Below, in pieces: positions 2,710 through 35,747 of a stretch of DNA of 38,157 bases; within the stretch, counting starts at the first letter, position 1; each line of letters opens with the position of its first letter. Origin of the DNA: a virus; IMG/VR virus record IMGVR_UViG_3300008117_000203, positions 1-38,157 of that record; one strand, given 5' to 3'. A model generated the notes under the pieces. It was not told the origin of the DNA. It saw only the letters and a list, made by a program, of their open reading frames with translations, and searched no databases. Both the position numbers and the translations under genes were made by a program.

Positions 2710-2946
2710 CTAATCCTTTATTGTTTTATATGTTTCGTTGTAGTATTGTTCTGCTTGGTCATTAGTCCACTGAGTATGTGGATGTTTATCAAATACCCGT
2801 TGCCCTTCAATGTGAGCATCCATTATCTGCTCCTTTTCCATTTCTTTGGCTTGATGTTTAATGAATTGAACATCTTCCACATTGTACATATCACCATCTT
2901 CAAATCGTTGAAGTAACCATTCAACTGCGGTTTGTTTCTTTTCCAT
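2710..2946 (-). CDS. Hypothetical protein, EKxQTAVEWL type
   Basis: A 78-aa acidic helical protein beginning MEKKQTAVEWLLQRF and containing KEMEKEQIMDAH and AEQYYNETY. I recall many small proteins with this N-terminus and an EQYYNETY C-terminal motif in Bacteroidetes phages and prophages, all uncharacterised. Its start overlaps the end of the next upstream gene by 26 bases. Confidence 0.75.
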   Translation of the reverse strand: MEKKQTAVEWLLQRFEDGDMYNVEDVQFIKHQAKEMEKEQIMDAHIEGQRVFDKHPHTQWTNDQAEQYYNETYKTIKD

Positions 2947-3169
2947 CTATTTGTAATTTTAGAATGTTTATAATGTATTTAGCACCTTCAATCCACCAAG
3001 ACCTTTTAGAATCGTTGTATAATATTTCATGTTTGCTGATTTCTTTTAGGTCATTTTCATCAGGTATATATATTGAAGCAAACGGACTCATTATGTCATA
3101 GTACCCATCATATCCACCGTGAGCTCTATCAATCATTTGCTTTACTTGTTCTTCTGTGTATAGTTTCAT
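2921..3169 (-). CDS. Hypothetical protein (MKLYTEEQV type)
   Basis: The preferred start is ATG at 3169, giving 82 aa beginning MKLYTEEQVKQMIDRA, an N-terminus I recall from small Bacteroidetes phage proteins. A longer frame from 3202 adds a basic MDKRKRRNRKA extension that is less typical. No domain recognised. It overlaps the downstream gene start by 26 bases. Confidence 0.65.
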   Translation of the reverse strand: MKLYTEEQVKQMIDRAHGGYDGYYDIMSPFASIYIPDENDLKEISKHEILYNDSKRSWWIEGAKYIINILKLQIDGKETNRS

Positions 3170-3217
3170 GGCTTTTCTATTTCTTCTTTTACGTTTATCC
3201 AATAGTTATAACCAATG

Positions 3218-3370
3218 CTAAAGAATCGACATCCTAAATTCATCTTCCGTTCCTTCGACATAGATTATTATTTCAGTTCCACTACAAAGCAATTTGAAAG
3301 CATAAGTTTGATGCTTCTTTTTCATAGCCTTTAACCATTTGACCATTTTCCAATATTTCCAATTAATCAT
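3218..3370 (-). CDS. Small hypothetical protein, 50 aa
   Basis: ATG at 3370 to TAG at 3218 encodes 50 aa: a very basic N-terminal half (NWKYWKMVKWLKAMKKKH) and a beta-like C-terminal half (YAFKLLCSGTEIIIYVEG). It fills the gap between the tRNA cluster and the preceding small gene. The alternating hydrophobic strands look like real coding sequence, but nothing is recognised. Confidence 0.55.
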   Translation of the reverse strand: MINWKYWKMVKWLKAMKKKHQTYAFKLLCSGTEIIIYVEGTEDEFRMSIL

Positions 3371-3428
3371 GTGTATAGTTATTTTTGTTTAATAAAGTAA
3401 TTCAATTTATTGTGCAATTTAATGTTTG

Positions 3429-3568
3429 TAGTCAGGACAGGACTCGAACCTGTTACAGCTATTTAGGCCATGCGAGCTCATCTGCATACTTAGGCTTTTT
3501 GTCTTCTCGGCTCCGGAACCTTACGACTGTAGCGTCACCTTGTTGGCTACCAATTACGCCACCTGACT
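3429..3568 (-). tRNA. Anomalously long tRNA-like gene (about 140 nt), anticodon not assignable
   Basis: The ends are tRNA-like on the minus strand: a perfect 7-bp acceptor AGTCAGG/CCTGACT, discriminator A, a D-loop motif AATTGGTAG, and a perfect T-arm ACAGG-TTCGAGT-CCTGT. Between D-arm and T-arm lie roughly 90 nt where 25-40 are normal. Possible split anticodon stems are TACAG...CTGTA or GCTA...TAGC around an inserted segment with its own hairpin ATGC...GCAT. It could be an intron-containing tRNA, a tRNA decoy or mimic, or a decayed gene. No CCA is encoded. Confidence 0.55.
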
Positions 3569-3600
3569 AACCTGTTTTACTGTGTATGATTTAATGTTTG

Positions 3601-3685
3601 TACCTAAGACAGGAGTTGAACCTGCACTCTATTTTGTAGAAAGGGATTTTAAGTCCCTCGTGTCTACCAATTCCACCACTTAGGC
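3601..3685 (-). tRNA. tRNA-Leu (UAA)
   Basis: Minus strand. Acceptor GCCTAAG pairs with CTTAGGT (one G-U), the D-arm contains AATTGGTAGACAC, and the anticodon arm has anticodon TAA in a loop closed by GGGA/TCCC. A long class II variable arm is present, and the T-arm CAGG-TTCAACT-CCTG is intact. No CCA is encoded. It reads UUA codons, which are abundant in this AT-rich genome. Confidence 0.92.
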
Positions 3686-3690
3686 AATAG

Positions 3691-3764
3691 TGGGCCCTGT
3701 AGGGATTGAACCTACGACATACAGATTATGAGTCTGTCGCTCTAACCTACTGAGCTAAAGGCCC
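3691..3764 (-). tRNA. tRNA-Met (CAU), or Ile2 if lysidine-modified
   Basis: Minus strand, 74 nt. Acceptor GGGCCTT/AGGGCCC (one G-U), D-arm GCTCAGTAGGTTAGAGC, anticodon stem ACAGA/TCTGT with loop CTCATAA giving CAT, T-arm GTAGG-TTCAATC-CCTAC. The standard G-C first pair argues for elongator rather than initiator Met. Lysidine-modified Ile (CAU) cannot be excluded from sequence alone. Confidence 0.92.
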
Positions 3765-3769
3765 TACTA

Positions 3770-3910
3770 TTAGTAAGAAAAATGTTGCAGATTAATCTGC
3801 TGAGTCTTGTATGCCTTACGAGCTACGTCAGGTCTTGTAGGATCTGTCACTTGTTGTGCACAGCCTGTACACAAAACAATAAGTATTACCAAGGCACAGA
3901 TTCTTTCCAT
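3770..3910 (-). CDS. Small lipoprotein (candidate outer-membrane spanin subunit)
   Basis: ATG at 3910 to TAA at 3770 encodes 46 aa with a lipoprotein signal (MERICALVILIVLCTGC) and a lipobox-like LCTGC, giving a mature lipoprotein of about 30 aa (CAQQVTDPTRPD...). A tiny lipoprotein overlapping the end of a coiled-coil membrane gene (25-base overlap, different frame) recalls Rz1-type o-spanins, which join an inner-membrane i-spanin to disrupt the outer membrane at lysis. Pro-Thr-Arg-Pro in the mature part fits the proline-rich tendency. The role is inferred from topology only. Confidence 0.6.
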   Translation of the reverse strand: MERICALVILIVLCTGCAQQVTDPTRPDVARKAYKTQQINLQHFSY

Positions 3911-4371
3911 GAGTAGTGTGTGATAAATATACTAGCTGTTGCAGCAATAGCTACTGTAAACCAGAATCTTTTAGCTCTAGTTTTCTTAACTACTTGCTTT
4001 TCTAAACCAATATTCTTTGCTTCAAACTCAGATACCAAGTCATTGCAATCATTAATCTGCTTTCTAAACCCTGCTTCTTTCTGTTTATGCAGTTGAATTA
4101 CAGTATCTTGTTTAGTAATTACCTCTTGCTTGATGTCTAAGCCTTTCTTAAGTAATACAATCTCTTCAGCATAAGAGTCTGCTTTAATTGCATCTTGTAT
4201 AAGATACAATGTAAGAGTCTTAGGAATGCCTATGATAGTATCGTTCTTAAGAGTATTAATTGATAGTGTCTTTTGGGGTGGTGGTGGAGTCTTTACTTCC
4301 GTAGTATCTGTTTGACAAAAACTTGATGATGTCATCAGAAGCATACTTGTTAATAGAATTAAGTTTTGCAT
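3886..4371 (-). CDS. Signal peptide - coiled coil - C-terminal TM protein
   Basis: The start is placed at ATG 4371 because MQNLILLTSMLLMTSSSF is a clear signal peptide. The frame upstream of it is only the shadow of the neighbouring gene. The mature part has a Pro-rich linker (TPPPPQK), a long coiled coil (about residues 70-135, KKGLDIKQEVITKQDTVIQL...) and a C-terminal membrane span (FWFTVAIAATASIFITHY). The protein would be periplasmic, anchored in the inner membrane by its C-terminus. It overlaps the preceding TM/coiled-coil gene by 116 bases and the lipoprotein gene by 25. It is probably one of three partners in an envelope complex. Confidence 0.7.
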   Translation of the reverse strand: MQNLILLTSMLLMTSSSFCQTDTTEVKTPPPPQKTLSINTLKNDTIIGIPKTLTLYLIQDAIKADSYAEEIVLLKKGLDIKQEVITKQDTVIQLHKQKEAGFRKQINDCNDLVSEFEAKNIGLEKQVVKKTRAKRFWFTVAIAATASIFITHYSWKESVPW

Positions 4372-4645
4372 TTCTCTTTCTTTTAAGTTGTTGGATTTGA
4401 AGTTCATTAGAGGCAAGCAGTGCATTAAGTACACTGATAGAATCATTAAGTGTATTAATCTTAATGTTGAGTGCTTTACGATCAAAGTCATATGCATTCA
4501 GTACGACTTGTAGGCTGTCTATGCGTAAGTCATTCTGATACAGCTGTGTTTCAATCTGTTCGTTTGCTTTGTGGTCTTTCTTGTACCACATAAATAGTAG
4601 TATACCTAATACACATACTATTACAAGTTTGTAGTCAATTTGCAT
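4256..4645 (-). CDS. N-terminal TM plus coiled-coil protein (i-spanin-like)
   Basis: A 129-aa protein with one N-terminal membrane span (KLVIVCVLGILLFMWY, residues 6-21), a following KKDHK stop-transfer sequence, then a long coiled coil (IETQLYQNDLRIDSLQVVLNAY...) and a Ser/Thr/Lys tail. This N-in, C-out topology with a periplasmic coiled coil is that of phage i-spanins such as Rz. The neighbouring overlapping coiled-coil and lipoprotein genes support, but do not prove, a spanin role. A general envelope coiled-coil protein is the alternative. Confidence 0.68.
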   Translation of the reverse strand: MQIDYKLVIVCVLGILLFMWYKKDHKANEQIETQLYQNDLRIDSLQVVLNAYDFDRKALNIKINTLNDSISVLNALLASNELQIQQLKRKRNAKLNSINKYASDDIIKFLSNRYYGSKDSTTTPKDTIN

Positions 4646-4647
4646 GG

Positions 4648-4947
4648 TTATTTATCTGAGTTAAATTCATATTCATTGTCATTGTCACTACTACTATGAT
4701 TTGATAGATCTATAGAGTCTAATGCATCATGTAGCATGTTTAATGTAATCCATTCAGGGTGTGTATCATCAAGACATTTACCCCAACTTGTAATCTCTAC
4801 AGATCTTGAACCTGGATGTCCTGGGTTACCATTGTAGTATGTGTGCACCTCAGGCTCATCTACAATATCTGCATCAATCCATACGTGTTCTTCTTCCTGT
4901 GTTTCAGGATGGTAGAATACATGCATTATTGTTACTGAATAATCCAT
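4648..4947 (-). CDS. Hypothetical acidic protein
   Basis: A 99-aa protein with a beta-rich first half (SVTIMHVFYHPETQEEEHVWIDADIV) and a disordered C-terminus rich in Asp, Asn and Ser (SSSDNDNEYEFNSDK). No domain recognised. It lies 2 bases upstream of the i-spanin-like gene and probably shares its message. Confidence 0.68.
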   Translation of the reverse strand: MDYSVTIMHVFYHPETQEEEHVWIDADIVDEPEVHTYYNGNPGHPGSRSVEITSWGKCLDDTHPEWITLNMLHDALDSIDLSNHSSSDNDNEYEFNSDK

Positions 4948-4990
4948 TGTTTGTGGTTATTGTGTGGTTTTGGTTGATAAAGATAATAAC

Positions 4991-22124: not shown

Positions 22125-22496
22125 ATGCCAACAACTAGAATTTACGCATTAGGAAGAACTGTAGAAGAAGCAGAAGGTATAGGTCAAAATGGTTATGTAA
22201 CAGTAAGTTGTGAGCTTACATTTGATATTCCTACATATGGACTATCAGGAGTAAGTGATAAAGACATACTATTAAATCAATTTCCTGAATTTTCAATAGT
22301 GACTATTAGTACTATAGACTACGCAAGATTGACTATTCCTATAGTATCAATTACTAAAAACATAGCGCTTACTGACCTGCAGGGTGCTTTAGAAGCTGCT
22401 TGGACAGATATTGATACAGAGATTAATGCTTTTACTCCATATAATTTTGACGGTATTATAAAAAGAAAGTGGGATGGCACAACTTGGAGCTATTAA
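22125..22496 (+). CDS. Hypothetical structural-array protein, 123 aa
   Basis: MPTTRIYALGRTVEEAEGIGQNGYVTVSCELTF then a helix near the end (LTDLQGALEAAWTDIDTEI). Overlaps the following gene start by 23 bases. Not recognised. Position inside the fibre gene array suggests a virion component. Confidence 0.58.
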   Translation: MPTTRIYALGRTVEEAEGIGQNGYVTVSCELTFDIPTYGLSGVSDKDILLNQFPEFSIVTISTIDYARLTIPIVSITKNIALTDLQGALEAAWTDIDTEINAFTPYNFDGIIKRKWDGTTWSY

Positions 22497-23367
22497 GCCA
22501 GGTAGATATAAACCAAATCTTAGCTCAACTATAGATTGGACACATCCTCTTAGTCAAGGGTTAGAGCTTTGTTTACCTTTTAATACTTTATATTCAAATT
22601 GCTTTATAGAATCAGTATCAGAATCTAAATATCTTTTAGGTAATACTGTAGGTGGAGCAGCTCCTACTGTAACTTACGGGCCTACAAGTACAGCAGTGAA
22701 CAGTGGGTTACCTAATGACCCCTCAATAAACTTTGTTACAGGTATTACAAGTAATGCGCTAATTGTAGATACTAATGACACTACTACTACTCTTAGTAAT
22801 ATATCTTCTGAAAAGATATTTACTATGAGAGTAAAATTTTGTTTAAATGCTTTACCTAGTAACCAAAACAGTACTTGGAGATGTTTTTTTTCAAAAGGTA
22901 ATGCGTTTGAAACTGTAGGAACTGTTAATACTAGCCTTTTTATGGGCATTAGTAACTCTGGTGTAAGAGCTACATTTGGAGCACAGAATAATGGAAATAG
23001 TACGTATAATATTAATAGTAGTCAAATTACAGCAGCTACTTTAGGTATAACTGCAAATAAATGGATAGATCTTGTTGTAGTATGGAGACAAAGTAATGCT
23101 ATTCATGATTGGTATGTAAATGGAAATTTTATCACTTTACAAACTGGAATTACAGCAGTTACTCAACCTGTAACAAATGTAAATCCTATAGTTGTAGGAG
23201 GCTATCCTGTTTATAATCCATCTACTAGTATAAGTGCTTTGAATACTACTGCTCCTACATATGCTATGCTTGGAAGAATTAGTAATATTATGTTGTGGTC
23301 ACGTAGATTAACTGCTAATGAAATTAAGCAGTTATACCAGTTCCCATATACAATGTTTAATAATTAA
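22474..23367 (+). CDS. LamG/concanavalin A-like virion protein
   Basis: A 297-aa protein with LamG/ConA-like features: WTHPLSQGLELCLPFN near the N-terminus, a middle hydrophobic strand set (TMRVKFCLNALPSNQNSTWRCFFSKG), KWIDLVVVWRQSNAIHDWYVNGNFI and the terminal MLGRISNIMLWSRRLTANEIKQLYQ, which is the usual closing motif. Such domains bind carbohydrates, so this may recognise host surface glycans. The start overlaps the previous gene by 23 bases. Confidence 0.78.
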   Translation: MAQLGAIKPGRYKPNLSSTIDWTHPLSQGLELCLPFNTLYSNCFIESVSESKYLLGNTVGGAAPTVTYGPTSTAVNSGLPNDPSINFVTGITSNALIVDTNDTTTTLSNISSEKIFTMRVKFCLNALPSNQNSTWRCFFSKGNAFETVGTVNTSLFMGISNSGVRATFGAQNNGNSTYNINSSQITAATLGITANKWIDLVVVWRQSNAIHDWYVNGNFITLQTGITAVTQPVTNVNPIVVGGYPVYNPSTSISALNTTAPTYAMLGRISNIMLWSRRLTANEIKQLYQFPYTMFNN

Positions 23368-23379
23368 ACAAATAAAACC

Positions 23380-23541
23380 ATGTTAGACAAAATCACAGAA
23401 TTAAAAGCTAAAGGTTATGATTTGATTGCTCAGTTAGAAGCTGTACAAAAGCAACTAGCTGAAGTAAATCAGCAAATTCAAGAAGAACATAATAGACTTG
23501 TTCTTCAAAGCCAGACTACTAATGTAGAGCTAGACCAGTAG
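23380..23541 (+). CDS. Coiled-coil peptide, 53 aa
   Basis: ATG 23380 to TAG 23541. MLDKITELKAKGYDLIAQLE...VQKQLAEVNQQIQEEH is a single amphipathic coiled coil with no signal. It could multimerise virion proteins. The coding claim rests on the heptad pattern and tight placement between neighbours. Confidence 0.62.
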   Translation: MLDKITELKAKGYDLIAQLEAVQKQLAEVNQQIQEEHNRLVLQSQTTNVELDQ

Positions 23542-23571: not shown

Positions 23572-24144
23572 ATGAAAAATCTTGTTTACTTAATTGTATT
23601 TCTTGCGTTTGTAGCTTGTAAAAAAGAAGCTACATCTATTGAACCTAAAGTTGTTCCAGCTAGTGGCGGTCAGGATGTTATGCCTACAGATGGTACAGAA
23701 GTAATGCGAGTTGATTCTAAAGCTGTAGAGTTTACCTCAGTTGAAAAAAGAGGAGGGAATGGGAATGGTAATGGAAATACACCCCCACCACTGCCAGAGT
23801 ATCAAAAGATTGATATGCCTGCTACTGATTGGAAAGTAACTTGGGATACATCTTGGTGCGGATGGTTAGTAATGAGGTGGGAAAACCAAATTAGACCAGC
23901 TAGTACTGCTGATCTAGAAGTTAGTCCTTACAGAATTGTAGTAACCCCTAGGGATTGCCCTTATTCTGCTGATTGCCTTACTAACTTATTCTACATGCGT
24001 TATGGTACCAGCTGCATGATGAAGGCTAGCAGTGTTTATGATATGCAAGTAGCATATACCATAAATGATAAAATAAATAGAGTACTTTATTATTATTATA
24101 GTACGCCTGTTAGAGTATATACAGGTGTAATGCTTTGTCAGTAA
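23572..24144 (+). CDS. Predicted surface lipoprotein
   Basis: A 190-aa lipoprotein: signal MKNLVYLIVFLAFVAC with lipobox FVAC, then KKEATSIEP. The Lys-Lys-Glu right after Cys resembles the Bacteroidetes lipoprotein export signal (Lys and acidic residues at +2 to +4), so surface exposure is possible. A Gly-Asn linker (GGNGNGNGN) and PPP precede a folded C-terminal domain with many Cys and aromatics (WDTSWCGWLVMRWEN, CPYSADC, CMMKA, final C). Placed among virion genes, a superinfection-exclusion or envelope-modifying role is possible. No homologue recognised. Confidence 0.68.
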   Translation: MKNLVYLIVFLAFVACKKEATSIEPKVVPASGGQDVMPTDGTEVMRVDSKAVEFTSVEKRGGNGNGNGNTPPPLPEYQKIDMPATDWKVTWDTSWCGWLVMRWENQIRPASTADLEVSPYRIVVTPRDCPYSADCLTNLFYMRYGTSCMMKASSVYDMQVAYTINDKINRVLYYYYSTPVRVYTGVMLCQ

Positions 24145-24150
24145 ATAATT

Positions 24151-24297
24151 ATGGCTAAACAGATTAAAAGCGGCTCGTCTAAATACCAAAAAAGAGCTAA
24201 AGTTAGACGTCCTGGAGTACATAGTAAAAAGAAAAATAGCACTCTAAAAAGCTCTAAAAACTATCGAAAGAAGTATAGTAGACAGGGTAGGAAATAA
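24151..24297 (+). CDS. Small very basic protein, 48 aa
   Basis: ATG 24151 to TAA 24297. The peptide MAKQIKSGSSKYQKRAKVRR...GVHSKKKNSTLKSS... has over one third Lys/Arg and is likely nucleic-acid binding. I recall similar short proteins with KRAKVRRPGVHSK near capsid genes in Bacteroidetes phages. Could condense DNA in the head or be a packaged cargo protein. Confidence 0.68.
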   Translation: MAKQIKSGSSKYQKRAKVRRPGVHSKKKNSTLKSSKNYRKKYSRQGRK

Positions 24298-24312: not shown

Positions 24313-24371
24313 GATACAAAATTTTAGTCTATCTATTGTTTAATAGATTTGACTTAAATTAACTTTGTATC
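24313..24371. promoter_or_regulatory. Nested inverted repeats at the capsid promoter
   Basis: Outer arms GATACAAA (24313-24320) and TTTGTATC (24364-24371) are perfect complements. The inner palindrome is ATCTATT-GTTT-AATAGAT (24331-24348). The right outer arm overlaps the -7 box of the promoter and the inner palindrome overlaps its -33 element, so either could be an operator. A terminator hairpin is an alternative for the inner palindrome, but it lacks a T run. Confidence 0.5.
24336..24367 (+). promoter_or_regulatory. Bacteroidetes sigma promoter for scaffold and capsid genes
   Basis: TTG (24336-24338), 21-base spacer and TAACTTTG (24360-24367). Transcription would start near 24373, about 40 bases before the scaffold ATG. 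Confidence 0.72.
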
Positions 24372-24411: not shown

Positions 24412-25485
24412 ATGAAAATAGAGGAAACCAAACTTGATTTGTCAGTACTTGACAAGATCACCATTCCTGAAGTGGAAGATTTGACTCACTTTGAAACTAA
24501 AGTAGAGTCAGAGCAAAAAGAGGAGCTTGAAGAAGCTGCCTTAGAAGAAGTAGAAGGTATTGATCAATTCAATACTGGGCAAGCACAAGAAGAGGAAGAG
24601 GAATCTGAATCTTTTAGTAGTTCTGAAAATACTGAAGAAGATCAAGACTCTCTCAAAGAGATTGCAAAGTGGGCCCATGACTTGGGCATCTTTGACTATG
24701 ATGAGAAAGACTTTCAATCTTCTGAAGAGTATTTTAAAGAGAAGTTCTTTGAAAAGGTAAAAAAAGAAGCACTTGAAACTTTACCTGATGAGATTAAGTA
24801 CTTGGCAGATGGATACATGAAAGGTATTCCTTTGTCAGAACTTATTAACTCAAAAGCTCGTGAAGAGTCTTACGCTAATCTCACAGATGATGAGCTTAAA
24901 GAAGATGAGACTTTGCAAGAGGAACTTGTAGGCCAATGGTTGGCTTTACAAGACCACGACCAAGACGAGATTAAAGAAAAGCTTGAGTCTTATAAGGATG
25001 GCTTGCTACTTGAAAAAGAAGCTAAAGTTGCACTTAAGAAGCTTAAAAAGTATGAGAGTTCTTACCAACAACAACTTGCTGCTGAGGCACAACAGCAACA
25101 GATGCTTGCTCAAAGACAATATGAGCAGCAGATGGATCAGCTTAAGAAAGACATAGAGTCAGCTGAAAGTTTCATCCCTGGTATCCAATTACAGAAGACT
25201 GATAAAGAAAGACTGTTTTCTGCAATTACTAGAAGAGACAGGGAAGGTAAGACTGAACTTGAGCGTAAGATGTCTACTAAAGATATGCAATTGGCAGTAG
25301 CTCAATTCGTGCTTCAATTAGAGGGTAAACTAGATGCAGTTGAAAGAAAGGCTTACACAAAAGCTGCTCAAAAGACTAAAACTGTAGTTAACAGTTACCC
25401 TGATGAAAGTAATAAAAATAAGAAGATTGATATTAGCGTCGTGCGTAAAGCTATAGATCAGTCTAAAAAACAGTATAAATTCTAA
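24412..25485 (+). CDS. Capsid scaffolding-like protein
   Basis: A 357-aa highly acidic protein (N-terminal EEVEGIDQFNTGQAQEEEEESESF) with coiled-coil Gln-rich middle (KKLKKYESSYQQQLAAEAQQQQMLAQRQYEQQMDQLKK) and a basic C-terminal end (KKIDISVVRKAIDQSKKQYKF). Acidic coiled-coil genes directly before the major capsid protein are typical scaffolds, with the basic end binding capsid protein. No protease domain seen. First gene of the capsid message. Confidence 0.72.
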   Translation: MKIEETKLDLSVLDKITIPEVEDLTHFETKVESEQKEELEEAALEEVEGIDQFNTGQAQEEEEESESFSSSENTEEDQDSLKEIAKWAHDLGIFDYDEKDFQSSEEYFKEKFFEKVKKEALETLPDEIKYLADGYMKGIPLSELINSKAREESYANLTDDELKEDETLQEELVGQWLALQDHDQDEIKEKLESYKDGLLLEKEAKVALKKLKKYESSYQQQLAAEAQQQQMLAQRQYEQQMDQLKKDIESAESFIPGIQLQKTDKERLFSAITRRDREGKTELERKMSTKDMQLAVAQFVLQLEGKLDAVERKAYTKAAQKTKTVVNSYPDESNKNKKIDISVVRKAIDQSKKQYKF

Positions 25486-25503: not shown

Positions 25504-26946
25504 ATGAGCGCAACACAAAAACTTAATTCTTTGCAGGTAAGTTATGCCAAATCGTGGGCAGGACTTACCACTGAGAACCACCTATACGCTATTTACCAAA
25601 ATGACGTACAGCTGGCTTCTGACATTGTAACGGAGGTATTCAACCGTATGGGTTACATCGGTCTGGATTCTTTCCTTTCTAAGTACCCCACTAAACTCTT
25701 TGACCATGATGGAGAGTACAAGTGGATGCTTAAAGGTGATAGCCGTCGTGCTATTCCTATCGCAGTAACTTACTCTGCTACTGCAACTCCTGGCATTAAC
25801 AAAACTACGTTTGAAATTACTCTTACTGAGAAATTTTTCGTAGCTTCTGATTATGTGTCTTTCGATGATGTAGATCATGGTGTACGTATTGAGGATGATG
25901 GTCGTCCTGACGGAACTAACTGGGTTTACACCGTACGTCACATGCGTTCAGACTCTGCTTATTTTATTCCTCTTGAACTTTTGAAAGCTGGTCGTAAAGT
26001 AGCTAAGCTGTACAATTCAGTAACTAACACTCTGAATGATCAGTATGGTGAGACTCAGTTCAGCTCAATGTTTGAGATGCGTAACCAGTTCTCTACCTTG
26101 TCAAAGAAGTATGTAGTACCTGGTAACATGCAGGATCGTCCTTTACTTATCAAGATGACTGGTTCTGAAGGTAAGTCTGTGACTGTATGGACCAAATGGC
26201 AAGAGATGGAATTCAACTTCCAGTGGCAGAAAGAGAAGGCTAACCAACTTATGTATTCTACTTTAAACCAGAATACTGATGGTACCTTTACTCAGAAGGC
26301 TCCTAATGGTTTCCCCATTAAGCAAGGTGCTGGTCTGCGTGAGCAAATCTCTCCGACCTATAAGTTCTACTACAACACCTTGACCTTGGATTACCTGTTG
26401 GAAGTTATGACCAACTTGTCTATCAACATTTTACCTGAAGATGAGCGTGAGTTCTTGATTCTTACAGGTGAAAGAGGAATGATTATGTTCCATAAGCTTG
26501 TAGAAGATAAGATTGGTATCCTTATTCCTCTTGGTGATACTGAGCGTATCAAAGGCTCAGGTCAGAACAAAGGACTTGGAGGCCAGTACAAGCAATTCAT
26601 GGGACCACAGGGTATCAAGATTACTGTAGCCCACATGCCTCAGTATGATGATCCAGTATTGCACCGTATGGAAGCACCAGATGGTGGATACACTGAAAAC
26701 TATCGTATGACTATCTTCAATATTGGTACTACTAATGGTGAGCCTAACATTCAGAAAGTTGCTCCTAAAGGTCGTGCTGAAGTGAAGTGGTATGTACCTG
26801 GTTCTACTACTCCTTTTGGTCCGCAGAATGGTGGTATGGGCGCATCTCCTGTAGATGGCTATGAAATGTACTGCCAGACTACTCAGGGTATTATGTTGAA
26901 AAACCCCTTGAGTGCTGCTGAACTTATCATGGATGTAACTTATTAA
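25504..26946 (+). CDS. Major capsid protein (HK97-fold expected)
   Basis: A 480-aa protein after the scaffold gene; length and position match Crassvirales MCPs (about 480-500 aa). Recognisable text: LDSFLSKYPTKLFDHDGEYKWMLKG, EKFFVASDYVSFDDVDHGVRIEDD and NILPEDEREFLILTGERG. Codons are noticeably biased to C-ending forms (TTC, TAC, AAC, ATC) compared with the T/A-ending neighbours, as expected for the most abundant virion protein. Starts after an A-rich leader without Shine-Dalgarno sequence. No cleavage site can be read. Confidence 0.9.
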   Translation: MSATQKLNSLQVSYAKSWAGLTTENHLYAIYQNDVQLASDIVTEVFNRMGYIGLDSFLSKYPTKLFDHDGEYKWMLKGDSRRAIPIAVTYSATATPGINKTTFEITLTEKFFVASDYVSFDDVDHGVRIEDDGRPDGTNWVYTVRHMRSDSAYFIPLELLKAGRKVAKLYNSVTNTLNDQYGETQFSSMFEMRNQFSTLSKKYVVPGNMQDRPLLIKMTGSEGKSVTVWTKWQEMEFNFQWQKEKANQLMYSTLNQNTDGTFTQKAPNGFPIKQGAGLREQISPTYKFYYNTLTLDYLLEVMTNLSINILPEDEREFLILTGERGMIMFHKLVEDKIGILIPLGDTERIKGSGQNKGLGGQYKQFMGPQGIKITVAHMPQYDDPVLHRMEAPDGGYTENYRMTIFNIGTTNGEPNIQKVAPKGRAEVKWYVPGSTTPFGPQNGGMGASPVDGYEMYCQTTQGIMLKNPLSAAELIMDVTY

Positions 26947-35101: not shown

Positions 35102-35344
35102 ATGTCTACAGCAATTGACACTCAAAGTGTCCAGGGTACAATTCTTAGTCTTATGTTACTTGGTATAGCCAAGTTTTTTGAAGCTATAAGCGTAGTAACC
35201 TTTTTACAAGGTTCTGCTTATTTCTTTACAGTTGTAGTAGCTATAGACACTCTTACTGGTAATACTATTCAAAAATGGATAGTAAAGAAATGTAAATGTT
35301 ATGCAAATAAGTCAAAAGGGTCTGGATCTAGTAAAGCGCTTTGA
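35102..35344 (+). CDS. Holin-like membrane protein
   Basis: The start at ATG 35102 (MSTAIDTQSVQGT) is chosen because the longer frame from 35030 reads through another gene. The 80-aa product has two hydrophobic segments (GTILSLMLLGIAKFFEAISVVTFL and GSAYFFTVVVAIDTLTG) and a basic C-terminal tail (KKCKCYANKSKG), the layout of class II holins. It overlaps the lysozyme start by 44 bases, favouring holin over a general membrane protein. Confidence 0.68.
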   Translation: MSTAIDTQSVQGTILSLMLLGIAKFFEAISVVTFLQGSAYFFTVVVAIDTLTGNTIQKWIVKKCKCYANKSKGSGSSKAL

Positions 35345-35747
35345 GGGATTCAGAGCTAAGCCATACTTATGCCCCGCAGGAGTGCCTACTATAGGATATG
35401 GTTCTACTTATTACGAAAATGGAGTAAAAGTAAAACTTACCGACAGGTCAATAAGTGAAGAATGGGCCGAAGAACTTTTAAGAAGAAACATGGTACATTA
35501 TGAACGTGGCGTAGATGCTATGACTAAGGACCATGTGAATCAGAATCAATTTGATGCTTTAGTAAGCTTTGCGTATAATGTGGGTCTTGTAAACTATAAG
35601 AACTCTACATTACTCAAAAGAATTAATGCTAATCCTAATGATCCAGATATTGAAAAGCAATTTATGAGATGGGTAAGAGCAGGGGGCAAAGTAATCAAGG
35701 GTCTGATAACAAGGAGACAGGCAGAAGCAACTCTGTATTTCTCATAA
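35301..35747 (+). CDS. Endolysin, GH24 phage lysozyme
   Basis: A 148-aa T4-type lysozyme (N-acetylmuramidase) that degrades peptidoglycan at lysis. MQISQKGLDLVKRFEGFRAK is followed by YLCPAGVPTIGYGSTY. The catalytic triad positions correspond to E15, C24 and T30 (T4: E11, D20, T26), so this is the E-Cys-Thr variant found in many phage lysozymes. Other family segments: NQFDALVSFAYNVG and RRQAEATLYFS. No signal peptide, so it needs a holin. The start lies inside the holin-like gene, and the end overlaps the next frame. Confidence 0.93.
   Translation: MQISQKGLDLVKRFEGFRAKPYLCPAGVPTIGYGSTYYENGVKVKLTDRSISEEWAEELLRRNMVHYERGVDAMTKDHVNQNQFDALVSFAYNVGLVNYKNSTLLKRINANPNDPDIEKQFMRWVRAGGKVIKGLITRRQAEATLYFS

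Follow-up and report, generated by a model that had tools for sequence, protein, structure and literature searches.

A family of mobile phage lipoproteins with an exchangeable fibronectin-III-like domain, predicted to act at the envelope of the infected host

A phage genome fragment of 38,157 nucleotides (IMG/VR record IMGVR_UViG_3300008117_000203, positions 1 to 38,157; this whole stretch is referred to as the window) carries, among its virion genes, a gene for a 190-aa protein that starts like a bacterial lipoprotein, which raises the question of whether such a protein is part of the particle or acts at the envelope of the infected cell, and to what end. The window comes from a crAss-like phage, as its capsid, terminase, portal, and ring proteins all belong to the Crassvirales set. 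The capsid matches PF23898 with an E-value of 7.3e-125 and the ring protein matches PF25710 (E 1.6e-14), while the terminase and the portal belong to phrog_6681 and phrog_6547, two families that also match the contig of locus L047. The capsid is 30–32% identical to the best 20 of 133 matching phage records, and the matches to known RNA families consist of three tRNAs. The endolysin is encoded at positions 35301–35747, 11 kb from the lipoprotein gene, and two overlapping membrane-type genes lie on the minus strand at 3886–4497 and 4256–4645, the second of which matches the Rz-like spanin PHROG 89 (E 8e-4). A similarly overlapping pair of membrane-type genes is present in the phage of loci L004 and L005.

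Table 1. Features of the lipoprotein gene and its neighbours, in coordinates of the window
Feature	Position	Strand	Basis or remark
Fibre-type ORF, upstream neighbour	22474..23367	+	Weak Laminin_G_3 match, E 1.4e-5, under the Pfam cut-off
53-aa ORF directly upstream	23380..23541	+	Coiled-coil-like by eye; no PHROG match
Lipoprotein gene, 190 aa plus stop	23572..24144	+	ATG to TAA
Predicted signal peptide, residues 1–15, ending in lipobox FVA/C	23572..23616	+	Pattern test; kept in 9/9 members
Codon of Cys16, the +1 residue predicted to carry the lipid; KKEA comes next as a partial export motif	23617..23619	+	Sequence
Asn/Gly/Pro tether GGNGNGNGNTPPP, residues 61–73	23752..23790	+	Sequence
Predicted FN3-like domain, residues 84–190, with four family-invariant Cys (96, 129, 148, 189)	23821..24141	+	
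Gene for strongly basic 48-aa peptide, downstream border of the slot	24151..24297	+	No PHROG match
Promoter-like site, presumably Bacteroidetes-type, TTG-N21-TAACTTTG	24336..24367	+	Before the scaffold/capsid genes
Scaffold-position gene, before the capsid gene	24412..25485	+	No family match
crAss-like major capsid protein	25504..26946	+	PF23898, phrog_11589

The initial annotation placed the gene within the virion cluster, and it does sit between a fibre-type ORF and the scaffold-position and crAss-like capsid genes (Table 1). Downstream of it is a TTG-N21-TAACTTTG site that we take to be promoter-like and of the Bacteroidetes type, in which an alignment of 14 loci shows no variation in CTATTGTTT or the TTTG core and a variable spacer; RNA structure prediction for this conserved region gave no structure. 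A sigma-70 scan for a promoter belonging to the lipoprotein gene itself gave no more than expected by chance, and such terminator-like sites as there were lay on the minus strand. As the promoter-like site lies downstream of the lipoprotein gene, this gene would form the end of the fibre-gene block. In most of the listed relatives an open homologue of the basic 48-aa peptide (RRPGVHSKKK core) precedes the promoter-like site.

The protein begins MKNLVYLIVFLAFVAC-KKEATS and its signal (LAFVA/C-KKEA) holds the lipobox that had been pointed out in the initial annotation, F-V-A-C with Cys16 at the +1 position. A signal peptidase II (SPII) pattern made for this analysis (basic n-region, hydrophobic 12-mer, and lipobox) fits one of the 83 ORFs in the window that start with ATG and are no shorter than 50 aa; the same pattern was found in 17 of 16,600 shuffled ORFs (0.1%) and in 23 of 20,000 shuffles of the lipoprotein itself. 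The lipobox, and with it the SPII substrate pattern, is kept in all nine distinct members of the family described below. Judged from this signal, the gene probably encodes a small protein that is lipid-anchored in the envelope of the infected cell, and the lipobox together with the conserved cysteines suggests that the C-terminal domain lies outside the cytoplasm.

The domain may be exposed at the surface or may lie in the periplasm. KKEA had been read as a Bacteroidetes surface-export signal, of which the lysine at +3 and the glutamate at +4 stand, while the alanine at +5 breaks the strict K-(D/E)2 form, described as the minimal surface-export signal of C. canimorsus (optimum C-X-K-(D/E)2-X) in an account that also gives SDDDD for B. 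fragilis and SDDFE for F. johnsoniae (PMC5080379). None of the nine members has a strict K-(D/E)2, SDDDD, or SDDFE after the +1 cysteine, motifs that may not be those of the actual host, and one acidic residue at +4 or +5 is present in seven of the nine. The family therefore has in common with the surface-exposed lipoproteins of the Bacteroidota the SPII signal and a lysine at +3 (in eight of nine members), but lacks the strict motifs of the three species throughout.

The family was assembled by querying IMG/VR contigs with the lipoprotein, its relatives, and the capsid, and an alignment search on 25 chosen records matched 12 of them. Nine members are distinct (those of the window, L003, L004, which equals L005, L014, L028, L031, L037, L047, and L058). 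Contigs that belong to the phage of the window or to a virtually identical one (L001, L002, L007, and L010–L013) were not counted as distinct, L005, L008, and L009 were left out as repeats of L004 or its phage, L061 repeats L058, and L006, L045, L046, and L048–L057 were left out of the counts as their places were already covered. In the window, the mature protein starts CKKEATS after the signal peptide, continues through a low-complexity segment that includes GGNGNGNGNTPPP, and ends in a Cys-rich domain; a Gly/Asn-rich stretch is also present in L003, L004, L028, L031, and L037, and is not found in L014, L047, and L058. The domain alignment of the nine members has 15 invariant columns, including the four cysteines in Table 1.

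Database searches gave little to which the family could be tied. Searches of NCBIfam with seven of the nine members returned only matches far below the cut-off, and a search of PADLOC-DB with seven members gave no match. Among phage records, five of the six members queried were without a match and the sixth (L028) gave two, both at E 0.9, to Acinetobacter tail fibres. Two scans of bacterial genome contigs seeded on short patterns (one of them low-complexity Gly/Asn) recovered no homologue, a search of plasmids with L028, the sole member queried, gave no match, and no paper on the lipoprotein was found among open PMC articles.

A structural model of the domain built from the nine-row alignment is all beta, with a mean pLDDT of 89.6 and a pTM of 0.80 (an earlier model from a four-row alignment, pLDDT 46.8, was set aside), and its top matches are fibronectin-III-type (FN3). 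With Foldseek the best E-value was 3.7e-3 and none was at or below 1e-3, and with VIA-align the best match had a Z of 8.4 (rmsd 2.7, 91 residues aligned), with six of 1000 chains at a Z of at least 8, a value under which, by the tool's own warning, a match may reflect merely a common arrangement. FN3 and tail-protein domains were also matched in BFVD, with similarly weak E-values, and the structures of Llp, Cor, and Rtp45 are absent among the fold matches listed, an absence that does not establish a different fold. On the fold of the model, which agrees with a seven-stranded FN3 beta sandwich, we read the domain as an FN3-like sandwich, a reading that claims no shared ancestry with FN3. The predicted fold is thus what the domain has in common with FN3 domains, including those of phage tail proteins; it differs from them in its four invariant cysteines and in the lack of a meaningful Pfam match, FN3 included, in all nine members, and the family carries a lipid anchor that sets it apart from FN3 tail proteins. 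FN3 profiles often miss diverged domains. A stretch of the L058 member, C-G-L-Q-P-R-T-T-Y, resembles what we take to be an FN3 motif, L-x-P-x-T-x-Y.

Nineteen loci were compared for the slot between the fibre-type ORFs and the scaffold/capsid genes, of which L020 was dropped (its contig has 52 bases ahead of the scaffold gene), and the family occupies the slot in six of the remaining 18 (the window, L003, L014, L028, L031, and L037) and is absent from 12, a count of loci and not of independent lineages, given that L017–L019 are near-identical, as are L025 and L043. L036, which has the gene elsewhere, was scored as absent from the slot, and 27 distinct contigs with capsid hits that are near-copies of the window's phage or have no sequence upstream of the scaffold gene stand outside the count. 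An empty site can be seen directly in L017 and L018, whose sequences match that of L014 to either side of the gene (73–74% identity), with the gene in L014 only. In another crAss-like contig (L032, capsid 90% identical), the slot is taken by a 532-aa ORF (positions 177–1775) with an M12-type metallopeptidase domain, two PKD-like domains, and a type IX secretion sorting domain whose match is weak and under the cut-off; it has no evident signal peptide.

Elsewhere, the gene takes up several other positions. In L058, on the contig of L036, it lies directly before the terminase gene, and in L047, a contig whose terminase and portal are crAss-type, it comes after a holin-like ORF (phrog_962, E 0.0043). 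The L047 contig encodes its own GroEL at 2823–4487 (phrog_5725, E 1.3e-130) and, at 4701–4958, a small ORF that is GroES-like by eye. In L004 and L005 the genes close to it include those for an ERF recombinase and for a VRR-NUC nuclease, and the phage has a phrog_2 terminase and is not recognisably crAss-like (a search of these contigs for PF23898 gave no match, but neither did control genomes). Based on its presence or absence as a unit among close relatives and on these other positions, the gene is best read as an accessory, horizontally moving phage 'moron'. Three of the carriers come from contigs with the same metagenome prefix, 3300008450 (L005, L012, and L036), so unlike carriers occur in one sample and may share hosts.

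Between the window and L003 the ORF is 85% identical and dN/dS is 0.145 overall, with 0.46 for residues 1–70 and 0.022 for residues 71–190, where 4 nonsynonymous and 31 synonymous differences were counted. The C-terminal domain is the constrained part of the protein, under strong purifying selection between near relatives, and the identity and dN/dS in this comparison, together with the lipobox in all nine members, argue that the ORF is a real gene. Between lineages, the domain is replaced. The window and L014 have capsids that are 97% identical and domains that are 32% identical; the capsids of L028, L031, and L037 are 91–92% identical to that of the window, and the window's domain is 28–30% identical to those of all members other than L003, L004, and L014. 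The domain from L004, the phage of another type, is 66% identical to the window's in the wider alignment and 70% in the core, and in the tree it groups with those of the window and L003 (SH-aLRT 89, bootstrap 85), which gives moderate support to domain transfer between phage types.

The exchange is also visible at the DNA level, where the domain of L028 is 55–73% identical to those of L031 and L037 and the stretches just before and after it are 88–98% identical, in a region whose scaffold gene further downstream is itself variable (65–95%). L028 and L031 have capsids that are 97% identical, fibre-type ORFs that are 92% identical, and domains that are 52% identical, and the mismatch runs in the other direction for the window and L003 (domains 97% identical) and for L031 and L037 (domains 76% identical), in both of which pairs the adjacent fibre-type ORFs are unrelated. 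From these mismatches it follows that the domain changes independently of the adjacent fibre-type gene, and this independence suggests a partner in the host. Across the six occupied slots the adjacent fibre-type genes are mostly unrelated despite 90–98% capsid identity, and some of them are glycine-rich. Constraint between near relatives combined with fast replacement between lineages fits a binding module that faces the host or a rival. As support was obtained for the lipoprotein signal, for the predicted fold, for the movement of the gene, and for the swapping of its outer domain, it is highly probable that the gene encodes a mobile envelope lipoprotein with an exchangeable FN3-like domain, and the family of such phage lipoproteins is newly described here.

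As for what the lipoprotein does, an envelope role such as superinfection exclusion is plausible and the most likely single guess, a reading that leads on the analogy with known phage lipoproteins, the accessory nature and mobility of the gene, and the exchange of its outer domain; to the whole statement, that this is an accessory envelope lipoprotein whose domain binds a host envelope component and brings about superinfection exclusion, we assign a probability of roughly 0.4. After export through Sec, the protein would undergo cleavage and lipidation at Cys16 and come to sit in the outer membrane of a presumed Bacteroidota host, where a flexible tether would carry the FN3-like domain, putatively braced by disulfides. 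The domain would then bind some part of the host envelope, most likely an outer-membrane protein through which phages enter, and may in this way keep rival phages from adsorbing to the infected cell and released progeny from adsorbing to debris. Which component is bound, on which face of the outer membrane, and that exclusion results are all inferred.

The analogy is with small envelope lipoproteins of coliphages that exclude from the periplasmic side of the outer membrane, Llp of T5 by acting on FhuA (PMC9586334) and Rtp45 of phage Rtp by acting on LptDE (PMC12685063). The crAss-like phage gene is likewise downstream of receptor-binding-type (fibre-type) genes, just as the exclusion lipoprotein genes of coliphages are described as following immediately on the receptor-binding locus (PMC9586334), and the conserved cysteines of the family have a counterpart in the intramolecular disulfide of Llp and Cor (PMC9586334). 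In contrast to Llp, Cor, and Rtp45, the last of about 6 kDa (PMC12685063), the crAss-like phage protein is about two to three times the size, has an FN3-like predicted domain, and belongs to a family with a different host phylum and several genome positions; profile searches of PDB sequences with two family alignments (A1 and A4), which would include the solved Llp, gave no match. A further likeness, by description, is to Ltp of the Streptococcus thermophilus phage TP-J34, a surface-exposed exclusion lipoprotein in which the variable exposed part sets the phage excluded (PMC3952083). Ltp differs in being encoded in the lysogeny module of Gram-positive temperate phages.

Against exclusion count the absence of the gene from 12 of 18 slots and of a strict surface-export motif from all nine members, the smaller size of the Llp/Cor lipoproteins, and the lack of a PADLOC-DB match for the seven members searched. 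The failure of the domain to track the adjacent fibre-type gene argues against an exclusion protein matched to the neighbouring adhesin, as the two should co-vary. Many exclusion proteins are expressed early, according to the T5 paper (PMC9586334); if the lipoprotein is expressed late with the structural genes, this would be late for exclusion, with protection of progeny from debris still possible.

Ranking close behind exclusion, and to be considered a tentative alternative, is an envelope lipoprotein that acts on the host otherwise, on an outer-membrane transporter, secretion, or envelope stress, or by countering a surface-based defence. The anatomy and mobility of the gene suit this as well, as does the independence of the domain from the adjacent fibre-type gene, and a subtype common to a crAss-like and another phage type (66–70% domain identity) fits a shared host target; however, the neighbours and the domain point to no particular pathway, the searches of PADLOC, NCBIfam, and Pfam included. 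It is improbable that the gene is cargo of benefit to infected or surviving hosts (an adhesin or a vesicle-shed binding protein) with no part in phage competition, which would agree with an accessory and mobile gene but would pay only in a long-lived infection.

A virion-associated or particle-borne adhesin is more improbable still. Six of the nine members lie between fibre-type and capsid genes and FN3-like domains are common in phage tail proteins, as the BFVD matches illustrate, but the lipobox in all nine members would direct the protein away from the cytoplasm, the site of virion assembly, and many phages do without the gene. The initial annotation had taken the place of the gene in the virion cluster as a hint of its function or of its being carried in particles, an argument from position that we reject given the relatives outside the virion genes and the empty slot in close phages. 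An outer-membrane spanin acting in lysis is the least probable, as the lipobox and the holin-like neighbour in L047 that would suit it are set against fibre-type and capsid genes as the neighbours in the window, a separate spanin-like pair (3886–4645) and a distant endolysin, the lack of the gene in many relatives, and a folded, Cys-rich domain of about 107 residues, which is not spanin-like.

To return to superinfection exclusion, a broader version of it, which we regard as unlikely, is that crAss-like phages draw, together with phages of other types that infect the same hosts, on a common stock of lipid-anchored FN3-like domains, exchanged as cassettes on a constant anchor, each of which would jam a particular host surface protein from outside. 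If so, the family would parallel the periplasmic Llp and Rtp45 plugs in a modular form that works outside the cell, and phages would contest the surface of the infected cell. The action of crAss-like phages on the host envelope has been little explored, and the word 'superinfection' occurs zero times in one Crassvirales review (PMC10136315). The natural domain variants and the empty-slot controls would make exclusion, the host target, and the evolution of the family testable in Bacteroidota, and an outer domain that moves between unlike phages would point to a host protein for which they compete.
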